Notes under the pieces: model-generated | Databases searched by the model: none | The model's input: only the letters and a program-made list of their open reading frames with translations | Told to the model about the DNA's origin: nothing | Assembly (NCBI GenBank): GCA_945870425.1 | Contig: CAMBSD010000020.1 | Location: 1 to 64,000, forward strand | Direction of reading: 5' to 3' | From: Chitinophaga pinensis | Lineage (GTDB): Bacteria; Bacteroidota; Bacteroidia; UKL13-3 | Length of the DNA: 64,000 nt | Shown here: one piece after another, positions 24,385-53,893 of the stretch | Layout of the letters: each line of letters opens with the position of its first letter | Numbering within the stretch: the first letter of the stretch is position 1 | Made by a program: the position numbers and the translations under genes

Positions 24385-24505
24385 CTCCGCATATTGGGTT
24401 TATTTCTGCGGTGAATAATGGGTTTAATCTCCGCAAATTTGCGGAGATTAAATTTGTATTTGCGGAGAATAGGAGATATATTTACCGCAAAAATGCGGAG
24501 ATTAA
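24385..24505 (+). promoter_or_regulatory. Cluster of CTCCGCA/TGCGGAG operator-like palindromes before fic
   Basis: A perfect 30-bp palindrome spans 24423-24452 (half-site TTTAATCTCCGCAAA and its reverse complement). A second, imperfect dyad (CCGCA-aaaa-TGCGG) lies at 24485-24498, with further half-sites CTCCGC at 24385, TGCGGTGAATAA at 24407 and TGCGGAGAATA at 24461. The last copy ends 6 bases before the fic ATG and supplies a GGAG that would serve as ribosome-binding site. This looks like multi-site binding of a repressor, perhaps the C-terminal wHTH of the Fic protein itself. Confidence 0.65.
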
Positions 24506-25739: not shown

Positions 25740-25747
25740 GGAAATCT

Positions 25748-41249: not shown

Positions 41250-41416
41250 TGTCAGTTCGAGCGGAGTCGAGAACAAAGGAATGTTTAGTGCTTTTGTCTA
41301 TTTCTCGACTCCGCTCGAAATGACAAAGGCTGCTCGAAATGACTAAAGCGATGAACCGAACAACTATCAACCGTAAACTGTGAAGCGAAAAACTGTGAAC
41401 CGAACAACCATGAACT
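41250..41416. repeat. Stem-loop repeat upstream of rnr, copy 1
   Basis: Arms TTCGAGCGGAGTCGAGAA (41255-41272) and TTCTCGACTCCGCTCGAA (41302-41319) form an 18-bp stem, with flanking TGTCA/TGACA. After it come GAACCG-type tandem fragments (GATGAACCGAACAACTATCAACCG). An almost identical copy lies after rnr. Confidence 0.8.
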
Positions 41417-43711: not shown

Positions 43712-43860
43712 CTGTCAGTTCGAGCGGAGTCGAGAACGAAGGAATGATTCGTGTTTGTCTATTTCTCGACTCCGCTCGAAATGACAAGGTCCGCTCGAAA
43801 TGACTAAAGCGATGAACCGAACAACTATCATTCTTGAACCGTCCACCAGTGAACCGACCA
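43712..43860. repeat. Stem-loop repeat downstream of rnr, copy 2
   Basis: Same orientation and nearly the same text as 41250-41371 (GTCAGTTCGAGCGGAGTCG..., then TTCTCGACTCCGCTCGAAAT...). It is followed by GATGAACCGAACAACTATCA as in copy 1 and by GAACCG fragments. Confidence 0.8.
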
Positions 43861-43936: not shown

Positions 43937-43963
43937 CCCCCTTTGAAGGGGGTTAGGGGGATG
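43937..43963. repeat. CCCCCTT-AAGGGGG palindrome with TTAGGGGGATG tail
   Basis: Member of the palindrome-plus-tail family. Occurs in the 515-base gap 43659-44173, where no protein gene is visible and the sequence is almost entirely repeats. Confidence 0.7.
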
Positions 43964-44049
43964 TTGTCAAATCTCACTAACTTTCTTAAAAACAGCGTAT
44001 AGTTTAATTTAAATATTTTCTGATAATTCATTTTGAATACGGATTCATT

Positions 44050-44082
44050 CCCTCCGTTAGCTAACGGAGGGTTAGAGGGATG
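44050..44082. repeat. 22-bp perfect palindrome (half CCCTCCGTTAG) with TTAGAGGGATG tail
   Basis: The palindrome spans 44050-44071 and the tail 44072-44082. A decayed echo, TAGCTAACTAAGGTCAAAGGG, lies at 44161-44181 and contains the stop codon of the DUF559 gene. Confidence 0.7.
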
Positions 44083-44173
44083 TATATACTCATCCCAAAA
44101 GTTTACTCAAATCCCAAACTTATCCTGAATCTATTATAAAAAACGAATTTAGGTTTCCAATAGCTAACTAAGG

Positions 44174-44554
44174 TCAAAGGGATGTGTTTTCTAAATACCA
44201 AATTGTCTCCTCAATTCTTAAAATAACATTATTTATATCCTGCTTTACCTCTAAATCCTTACATCTAAAAAATGTAACACCATGTTCTTCTAATCTGCTT
44301 TGCCTTAATGAGTCTAGTTCAATGGCATCATCATTGTCATGAGATATGCCGTCAATTTCTATGGCTAACATCAATTCGTGACAATAAAAATCAACAATAT
44401 ATTCAAGCATTGGAACTTGGCGATGAAATTCGTAACCAAGTGATTTTCCTTTGAGCTGTTTCCAAAGTAACACTTCACTTAAAATCCTCTTTTTTCTTAG
44501 ATCTCTCGCTAAGTTTTTTAAGTCTTTTTTATATGGAATAATTATGTTTTTCAT
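44174..44554 (-). CDS. DUF559 (Vsr-like) endonuclease-domain protein
   Basis: 126 aa from the ATG at 44554; the frame is open through the repeat upstream to 44638 but the repeat itself is not likely coding. The DUF559 domain shows LARDLRKKRILSEVLLWKQLKGKSLGYEFHRQVPM, EYIVDFYCHELMLAIEIDGISHD (Asp-x9-Glu-x-Asp core) and RQSRLEEHGVTFFRCKDLEV. This is a restriction-like PD-(D/E)XK fold related to Vsr. Its stop codon (TGA 44176-44174) lies inside the degenerate repeat and its upstream side abuts an inverted copy of the same repeat tail. No partner gene is near. Confidence 0.85.
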   Translation of the reverse strand: MKNIIIPYKKDLKNLARDLRKKRILSEVLLWKQLKGKSLGYEFHRQVPMLEYIVDFYCHELMLAIEIDGISHDNDDAIELDSLRQSRLEEHGVTFFRCKDLEVKQDINNVILRIEETIWYLENTSL

Positions 44555-44585
44555 TGGTGAAATTATTTGGTGTTGAATGTCGTAA

Positions 44586-44624
44586 ACATCCCCCTTAATC
44601 CCCCTTTCCCGATGCATCGGGAGG
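44586..44624. repeat. ACATCCCCC... inverted repeat copy upstream of DUF559 gene
   Basis: Reads ACATCCCCCTTAATCCCCC and then the palindrome CCCGATGCATCGGG (44608-44621). In reverse complement it ends GGGGGATGT, the same tail as the other members. Together with 44176-44185 (AAAGGGATGT) it makes inverted ends around the DUF559 gene. Confidence 0.7.
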
Positions 44625-44674
44625 GAATTCCAGCCCACTAGCTTCTCCTATATTTTCAATTCATCATCCAAATG

Positions 44675-44795: not shown

Positions 44796-45515
44796 CTAAA
44801 TCATCACCACATTCTCATCCCTCAACAATTCCTCATTCCTAAATTTAAGCATCAGGTTAGCCACCGTCACCACATCCTTTTGGCAATAGGTTTTAATACG
44901 TTCAAGGTCTTTATCCAGCCAATACACTTGCCACACCATGCTGCCATCTATATCATCTTTAGGGGTGGGCACATTGAAGCTAGCCGCCAACAAATCCAAT
45001 GAGGTGAAGCTTTTATAATCACCAAACTTCCATAGTTCCATGGTGTCTAAGAGGTTTACCTCCCAAGGCTTTTTGCCTGCGGTGTTAAGTATGTGAGGTA
45101 TTTCAAGGCCATTAATAAGGCACCTACGTGCAATGTATGGGTAGTCGAACTCCTTGCCATTGTGGGCACATAAGGAGTTGCCTGCATCACTAAAATGCCT
45201 TTCTATCATCCTGCAAAAATCCCCCAGCAGTTGGGCTTCATCATGACTGTAAAACGACTTTACCCTAAACTGATACTCACGGCCGCTGCTGCTAAAAAAG
45301 CCACAGCTAATGCACACAATTTTGCCAAACTCAGCGTAGATGCCTGCGCGGTTGTAAATGTCTTCAGGTGTTTGGCCTTCCTCTTTCTTTAGTATGGCCG
45401 ATTTCTTCTTCCATAGTTCTTTCCATCTTTCGGGCAATTGGCTGTATTCGGCATACTGCGGCACCGTTTCTATATCCAGAATAAGTATTTTGGTTAGGTC
45501 GAGATGTTGAATCAT
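44796..45515 (-). CDS. 3'-5' exonuclease, DnaQ/PolB-like RNase H fold
   Basis: 239 aa. RNase H-like exonuclease with ILDIETVPQ (Asp14/Glu16), LCAHNGKEFDYPYIARR (second acid) and YCQKDVVTVANLM (C-terminal Tyr/Asp). Matches the predicted PolB-like exonuclease family. It probably trims single-stranded DNA. Its 5' part and promoter region are duplicated about 3.8 kb away (48990-49365); the intact copy here lies downstream of the inserted nuclease operon. Confidence 0.85.
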   Translation of the reverse strand: MIQHLDLTKILILDIETVPQYAEYSQLPERWKELWKKKSAILKKEEGQTPEDIYNRAGIYAEFGKIVCISCGFFSSSGREYQFRVKSFYSHDEAQLLGDFCRMIERHFSDAGNSLCAHNGKEFDYPYIARRCLINGLEIPHILNTAGKKPWEVNLLDTMELWKFGDYKSFTSLDLLAASFNVPTPKDDIDGSMVWQVYWLDKDLERIKTYCQKDVVTVANLMLKFRNEELLRDENVVMI

Positions 45516-48936: not shown

Positions 48937-49305
48937 CTAATGATTGGATTTATGCTTCAGCGTAACTTGCAAAACCATTTTCAACTGCATTTCTATCATC
49001 CTGCAAAAATCCCCCAGCAGTTGGGCTTCATCATGACTGTAAAACGACTTTACCCTAAACTGATACTCACGGCCGCTGCTGCTAAAAAAGCCACAGCTAA
49101 TGCACACAATTTTGCCAAACTCAGCATAGATGCCTGCGCGGTTGTAAATGTCTTCAGGTGTTTGGCCTTCCTCTTTCTTTAGTATGGCCGACTTCTTCTT
49201 CCATAGTTCTTTCCATCTTTCGGGCAATTGGCTGTATTCGGCATACTGCGGCACCGTTTCTATATCCAGAATAAGTATTTTGGTTAGGTCGAGATGATGA
49301 ATCAT
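48937..49305 (-). pseudogene. Truncated 5' copy of the exonuclease gene
   Basis: 122 codons, the first about 106 nearly identical to the intact gene at 44796-45515 (Gln3 replaced by His), then a 16-residue foreign tail ending NH-stop. The RNase H motif I (ILDIETVP) is present, but motifs II and III are missing, so the product cannot be active. The stop codon is one base before the DUF1016 ATG, which allows translational coupling. Confidence 0.85.
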
Positions 49306-53836: not shown

Positions 53837-53893
53837 CCCTTCTCCTTAGGAGAAGGGTTGGGGATGAGGCCTGATGAGGCCTGATGAGGCCAA
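53837..53893. repeat. CCCTTCTCCT-AGGAGAAGGG palindrome with GGGGATG tail and TGATGAGGCC repeats
   Basis: A 21-base near-palindrome (53837-53857), the tail TTGGGGATG (53858-53866), and then three TGATGAGGCC-type units (53862-53891). Member of the palindrome-plus-tail family. It lies in the 306-base gap 53681-53986, where no gene is visible. Confidence 0.7.

Follow-up and report, generated by a model that had tools for sequence, protein, structure and literature searches.

Stand-alone DUF559 nuclease genes as probable coding members of a class of mobile palindromic elements

A class of mobile palindromic elements probably has the stand-alone genes of the DUF559 family as its coding members, and the spread of these elements would be nuclease-driven and of the homing type. 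The mobility of these elements and the pairing of each nuclease with a cognate repeat are well supported, and we infer that the nuclease drives the movement by cutting the hairpin-tail unit.

The DUF559 gene of the window and its palindromic units

The window is the whole stretch of DNA that was analysed, 64,000 nucleotides from Chitinophaga pinensis; the source genome (2.96 Mb in 43 contigs) possesses three DUF559 genes. The gene in the window and the units around it are as follows.

44174..44554, minus strand: DUF559 gene, nuclease of the Vsr fold (EDxHD-like), 126 amino acids, PF04480 E 2.2e-24
44153..44185, plus strand: decayed unit containing the stop codon (44174-44176), tail AAAGGGATGT kept, score 36 to the intact unit
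44586..44628, minus strand: inverted unit 5' of the gene, hairpin TCCCGATGCATCGGGA (44607-44622), tail ending in GGGGGATGT toward the gene
44050..44083, plus strand: intact unit 3' of the gene, hairpin CCCTCCGTTAGCTAACGGAGGG (44050-44071) and tail TTAGAGGGATGT toward the gene
43937..43964, plus strand: second unit 3' of the gene, hairpin CCCCCTTTGAAGGGGG (43937-43952) and tail TTAGGGGGATGT, fold z -2.05

The window protein matched the DUF559 profile PF04480 with 85.9 bits (curated cut-off, 20.6). The Pfam scan detected DUF559 and MTES_1575 only, and a GIY-YIG domain was absent. The protein has all of E27, D55, E66, D68, H72 and D81, which are invariant or nearly so in an alignment of 34 homologs (A1). 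By comparison with a published DUF559 protein (PMC12907096), E27, D55, D68, H72 and D81 would correspond to the catalytic E, D, x, H and D. An AlphaFold2 model of the protein (pLDDT 91) was compared with known structures by Foldseek, and 3hrl, 3r3p (E 6.5e-4) and 1vsr (E 0.12) were matched; 3r3p was also detected by hmmsearch (E 1.8e-6). The first is NGO0050 of N. gonorrhoeae, a member of the DUF559 family whose structure was solved without a function, the second is the catalytic domain of the homing endonuclease I-Bth0305I, and the third is Vsr. Judging from the model, the window protein would have the fold of Vsr and I-Bth0305I.

The ATG at 44554 is probably the start codon. The frame is open further upstream, through the 5' palindrome, as an earlier note on this DNA had stated, and as far as a GTG at 44638. 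The TGA stop codon (44176-44174, minus strand) lies within AAAGGGATGT (44176-44185). The earlier note had placed this codon in a decayed repeat, and the comparison of 44153-44185 with the intact palindrome 44050-44083 bears this out: the global score was 36, the random windows had a mean of 5 (sd 4.8), and none of 3934 reached 36. The hairpin fold of the decayed unit is gone (z 0.39). The upstream inverted copy with the same tail, which the note had also described, was found with its tail ACATCCCCC at 44586-44594. As single-stranded DNA, the unit 44050-44083 folds with a z of -5.4, and none of 200 shuffles was equally stable. The tails of all units at the window gene run ...GGGATGT toward the gene.

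The clear GGGATGT-type units (43937-43964, 44050-44083, 44153-44185 and 44586-44622) lie less than 700 bases apart, at the DUF559 gene. The proposal that their tail is common to palindromes scattered in the window did not hold, since GGGATGT occurs 8 times across the window against 5.2 expected, which is no enrichment; it was dropped as a window-wide repeat. Exact GGGTTAGRGGGATGT tails occur four times in the whole 2.96 Mb genome, twice at the window gene. The remaining hairpin units in the window have different tails, of the GGGTGGGTA type in inverted orientation at 25747 and 27426, and GGGGATGAGG at 53837. At the second stand-alone DUF559 gene of the genome, perfect inverted 35-nt units with another tail, CCCCTCCTTGGAGGGG-TTAGGGGTGGGT, were found on the two sides. 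The window copy appears to be an old one, as one of its flanking units has decayed. No clean empty site could be read for it: the gene order of the relatives differs (exonuclease followed by rnr or the thioesterase), and the exonuclease had no match in one relative (G001).

Some other repeats were observed in the window. A short AT-rich palindrome pair (TTAATCTCCGCAAATTTGCGGAGATTAAAT) at 24424-24505 is unrelated to the hairpin-tail units. Another palindrome class (TGTCAGTTCGAGCGGAGTCGAGAA...TTCTCGACTCCGCTCGAAATGACA) at 41250-41325 and 43713-43786 resembles the CGTC/TGTC-tagged REPs, which have been reported without a dedicated transposase (PMC3733652, PMC10969869). Single-domain GIY-YIG genes in these genomes had matching repeats on both sides in 14 of 20 cases, and GIY-YIG proteins may be the partners of the CGTC/TGTC-like palindromes. 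In addition, 300 nt of the exonuclease gene occur twice with 99% identity (45193-45492 and 48983-49282), around two genes of 769 and 344 amino acids, which by eye are apparently DUF2357- and DUF1016-like nucleases. We read this arrangement as an insertion of 3.8 kb that left a long target duplication.

Flanking units and their pairing with nuclease lineages

From 58 relatives, 40 stand-alone DUF559 genes were collected with their flanks. A scan of GTDB genomes gave 80 named loci from Bacteroidota, Planctomycetota, Calditrichota, Zixibacteria, Hydrogenedentota and others; its profile was the narrower alignment A2 (full A1 without conserved stretch), so that these loci are biased toward the clade of the window gene, and the set of 58 relatives is free of this bias. 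A hairpin-plus-G-run unit was detected within 300 nt of 95 of 113 DUF559 genes and of 140 of 1129 control ORFs (Fisher p 6e-58), by a detector designed after examples had been seen and applied to the controls by the same rule. Units on both sides within 300 nt were found for 60 of the 113 genes, which are phylogenetically non-independent, and for 10 of the 1129 controls (Fisher p 1e-59). Thus, most DUF559 genes do not lack such flanks. Nor are the repeats as close to other genes: the density was 7.8 units/kb within 100 nt of DUF559 and fell to 0.2/kb at 2-10 kb.

Many units are intergenic, and one might suppose that GC-rich hairpins simply fill intergenic space in which short DUF559 frames are then found. 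However, the intergenic sequence of the same loci contains 0.48 units/kb against 7.8 adjoining DUF559. The match between the two flanks of a gene also exceeds that of control genes: the upstream flank resembled the reverse complement of the gene's own downstream flank above the control 99th percentile in 18 of 38 DUF559 genes, against 2 of 367 control genes. In a larger set, inverted matches were found in 31 of 77 pairs (controls, 16 of 822) and direct matches in 37 of 77 (controls, 24 of 822). With the insertions within conserved genes described below, the control genes and the intergenic density refute a compositional artefact, whose chance we regard as practically negligible.

The tails are of the types GGGGATGT, GGGGTGTGT, GGGTGGGT, GGGGTGAG and similar. 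Their orientation varies; in stand-alone genes they point mostly inward, in the inspected in-frame elements outward, and the two units are often direct, not inverted. Strictly inverted, inward-pointing ends were therefore abandoned as a rule among the genes examined. The expectation that DUF559 genes would have inverted GGGATG ends was right as to flanking units, which are common, but inward inversion is not general and the tails differ by lineage. On a plasmid of Deinococcus psychrotolerans (L077), DUF559 lies in the paa operon and is framed by inverted repeats that are near-perfect and about 55 nt long; their hairpins are on the inside and their tails on the outside. In Neisseria gonorrhoeae (L075), the gene is flanked by direct repeats of about 75 nt containing a hairpin; the structure 3hrl (NGO0050) is of the same family and species as this protein.

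E. coli DUF559 shows similar repeat framing. The gene, ycjD, lies between sapF and fabI (L158, L163). Of 5426 complete genomes, 3365 have it, and the alternative allele is the eef efflux operon (eefRABCD). Because of this alternative allele, ycjD was set aside as a clean empty/filled site and is a presence/absence polymorphism only. Pieces of the adjacent palindrome were found at several other places per E. coli genome, even where ycjD is absent, whereas the gene itself is confined to one locus.

The identity of the nuclease proteins covaries with the similarity of their flanks (111 genes, Mantel r 0.54, p 0.001). Part of this value reflects common ancestry, which has less influence on the test within genomes and on the exact patterns. 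In genomes with two nucleases, the repeat followed the nearest nuclease elsewhere and not the genome-mate by 16 to 7 (Wilcoxon p 0.01), several exceptions being close paralogs. The GGGGTTAGGGGTGGGT pattern (GGGTGGGT type) occurred in 2 of 58 genomes, both carriers of the cognate nuclease, and the end pattern of the in-frame clade in 5 of 58, all carriers. The Flavobacteriaceae unit CCCCTTGAGGGGAYYWYAGGGGTGT was found in 5 of the 396 genomes of the class sample; three were among the five best carriers, and the only two multi-copy genomes were both such carriers. Reversed-pattern controls gave 0 in the carriers and in all but one other genome. The window-type tail occurred in 5 of 58 genomes, two of which carry the nearest nuclease clade and have the most copies. 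Exact copy numbers per genome were low (1-7). Current activity is thus uncertain.

In-frame elements inside conserved enzymes

DUF559 domains that appear to be fused to large proteins proved to be palindrome-DUF559-palindrome units lying in frame within conserved enzymes. Being in-frame insertions themselves, these genes were dropped as a negative control for the flanks. The hosts are as follows.

LeuRS, two sites (A and B): before VFTTRPDT and before TMPGWAG
AcsA: before DVYWCTADIGWITGHSY
HsdR: before WHTQGSGKS
SpoIIE phosphatases: before IADCTGHG
Further hosts: MetH, RecG, RecJ, a CoA-transferase and a type IIG methylase

Profile scans of the inserted proteins detected host domains and DUF559 only, and no Hint or splicing domain. 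In one further locus (L204, G041:C20), the DUF559 frame extends into a large SpvB/TcdB-like ORF (Pfam). Annotations of DUF559 fusions would be insertions and not functional fusions.

No transposase was found in the elements; the empty-site partners were too diverged for a target-site duplication to be read. Another idea is that the palindromes are moved by a RAYT or IS200-type transposase, or by host processes, and that a captured DUF559 gene rides along. REP-RAYT systems do move similar hairpins elsewhere (PMC3733652), and Y1-transposase genes are present in 49 of 58 of these genomes. However, the RAYT-like genes were without units (6 of 28 had them on either side and 1 of 28 on both), and RAYTs were rejected as the mover on account of these flanks. 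The tail type tracks the clade and the presence of DUF559, and the in-frame elements hold DUF559 and no other gene between their palindromes. A passenger role is therefore quite improbable in our judgement.

Within one genus, site A of LeuRS is empty (G017), contains a bare in-frame palindrome TPNRSPQERGRGEDV (G005), or contains palindrome, nuclease and palindrome (G027). Site B is filled in G009 and empty in G020, again within one genus. The polymorphic presence that had been predicted for the window element was thus seen at other sites, here and at ycjD, and bare palindromes without the gene, one of them in frame, agree with the non-coding relatives that had been proposed. The bare palindrome of G005 lies exactly at the position of the filled element in G027. 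Such bare copies, and E. coli repeats that persist without ycjD, may also mean that palindromes are seeded by a separate mover and that the nuclease only homes into those already present. This is a possible but rather unlikely course, since bare palindromes could just as well have arisen from filled elements by deletion, and genomes without the nuclease have hardly any of the exact patterns.

In the domain tree, one clade (support 100/95) is made up of dedicated in-frame elements, and other in-frame groups branch separately from it. A single origin per site was rejected by AU tests for LeuRS site A (p 0.0004), LeuRS site B (p 0.009) and AcsA (p 0.02). Since the elements at the same site do not form one clade, they moved between genes, repeatedly into the same sites. 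In G041, the inserts of two SpoIIE paralogs are identical at 392 of 410 nt (96%) up to the end of the palindrome tail, and past the tail the host DNA is identical at 309 of 631 nt (about 49%), beyond a short conserved motif. This pair represents a recent transfer, the border of which coincides with the palindrome. In another protein of G041, the same palindrome end was found in frame and without the nuclease. The occupied and empty alleles at LeuRS sites A and B, the AU tests and the SpoIIE paralogs thus indicate spread not by descent alone, as is required of a homing element.

The Vsr-like fold invites the reading that DUF559 proteins are house-keeping enzymes of Vsr-type mismatch repair, and that nearby hairpins and G-runs need repair or regulate their expression. 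Caulobacter VsrA, a DUF559 protein, gave DNA damage when its partner methylase was absent, and was read as a mismatch-repair nuclease without biochemistry; it is the sole functional study that we found (PMC12907096). Yet a repair gene would not be expected to have clade-specific tails on both sides, to be inserted in frame in unrelated enzymes, to be patchily distributed or to have moved recently within a genome, and we consider this role very improbable.

Proposed mechanism, related systems and implications

In the mobile element that we favour, the gene of a small Vsr-fold nuclease is framed by GC-rich hairpins, each with a G-rich tail (e.g. hairpin-TTAGGGGGATGT), and the tail would be specific to the nuclease lineage. 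Most likely, the nuclease recognises the hairpin-tail unit cognate to it, and would cut either this unit, as a single-stranded hairpin or as duplex, or the unoccupied allele. An occupied locus would then serve as the template for repair of the break, so that the element is copied, which gives homing-type spread. Nuclease-free palindromes would be the non-autonomous relatives. The in-frame life in conserved enzymes would have arisen in one dedicated lineage and, in addition, at least three times elsewhere, with no splicing domain detectable, and the in-frame elements adjoin active-site motifs, where imprecise loss would be lethal.

The association, the cognate pairing, the recurrent insertion at the same sites, the recent movement within a genome, the fold and the conserved catalytic residues are observations. 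Of the minimal self-propagating element suggested earlier, the mobility and the pairing stand well supported, and propagation would be by the element's own nuclease. The varying tail orientation and the low copy numbers fall outside this model and are not explained by it. The recurrent use of sites could arise if only insertions in permissive loops survive selection, and the E. coli repeats in strains without ycjD, with the gene at one locus, also count against the model.

We lean slightly toward a wider view, in which DUF559 is the dedicated nuclease of pan-bacterial palindromic elements, distinct from the HUH systems (RAYT/IS605), and in which one lineage is translated, unspliced, within essential enzymes and moves between unrelated genes, as an intein-like parasite without an intein. 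REP/RAYT systems (REPtrons; PMC3733652, PMC3116915) likewise have GC-rich hairpins whose conserved tail is unpaired; their copies are dispersed, some of them inside genes, and an enzyme gene lies between cognate repeats. However, their enzyme is an HUH tyrosine transposase and their tag is GTAG, whereas the DUF559 elements have a Vsr-fold nuclease and G-rich tails (GGGGATGT, GGGGTGTGT, GGGTGGGT) that lack this tag. Between the palindromes, DUF559 only and no HUH tyrosine transposase gene was found, and the Y1_Tnp genes are without units. The Rickettsia palindromic elements and the CGTC-tagged REPs (PMC3733652, PMC10969869) share in-frame palindromes in many unrelated proteins, and DUF559-type units also lie in frame in proteins. 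They differ in having another tag, no known dedicated enzyme and no nuclease inside; neither the CGTC/TGTC tag nor a CCA tail was seen in DUF559-type units. Inteins and the ShiLan domain (PMC11855218) are also nuclease-bearing insertions in conserved enzyme genes without stop codons. Inteins have a splicing domain, which is missing in the DUF559 elements, whose ends are mobile palindromes, and the HNH of ShiLan is out of frame, whereas DUF559 is read in the host frame (PMC11855218). I-Bth0305I (PDB 3r3p) shares the fold, the pattern of catalytic residues, presence/absence alleles and insertion in conserved genes, but is a mobile-intron protein, whereas in DUF559 elements no intron or intein was detected and palindromes frame the gene.

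DUF559/COG2852/YcjD (PF04480, PRK09767), with NGO0050 (3hrl), is the same family and is known only as structure or annotation. In the literature that we searched, no description was found that connects DUF559, COG2852 or ycjD to repeats, to palindromes or to homing. Ssn, a GIY-YIG protein, is encoded by a single-domain nuclease gene flanked by repeats that Ssn recognises. It differs from DUF559 in its unrelated nuclease fold and its different repeats, and we know of no in-frame residence of Ssn in essential enzymes.

If this explanation is true, a function would be given to the widespread family PF04480, including E. coli YcjD, and dispersed palindromes without a known transposase would have a candidate engine. 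It would also show how nuclease genes can turn into lasting, translated domains of essential enzymes such as LeuRS, methionine synthase and acetyl-CoA synthetase. The origin of in-frame palindromes in proteins, which were noted in Rickettsia, would become directly testable with a purified protein of 126 residues and short oligonucleotides.
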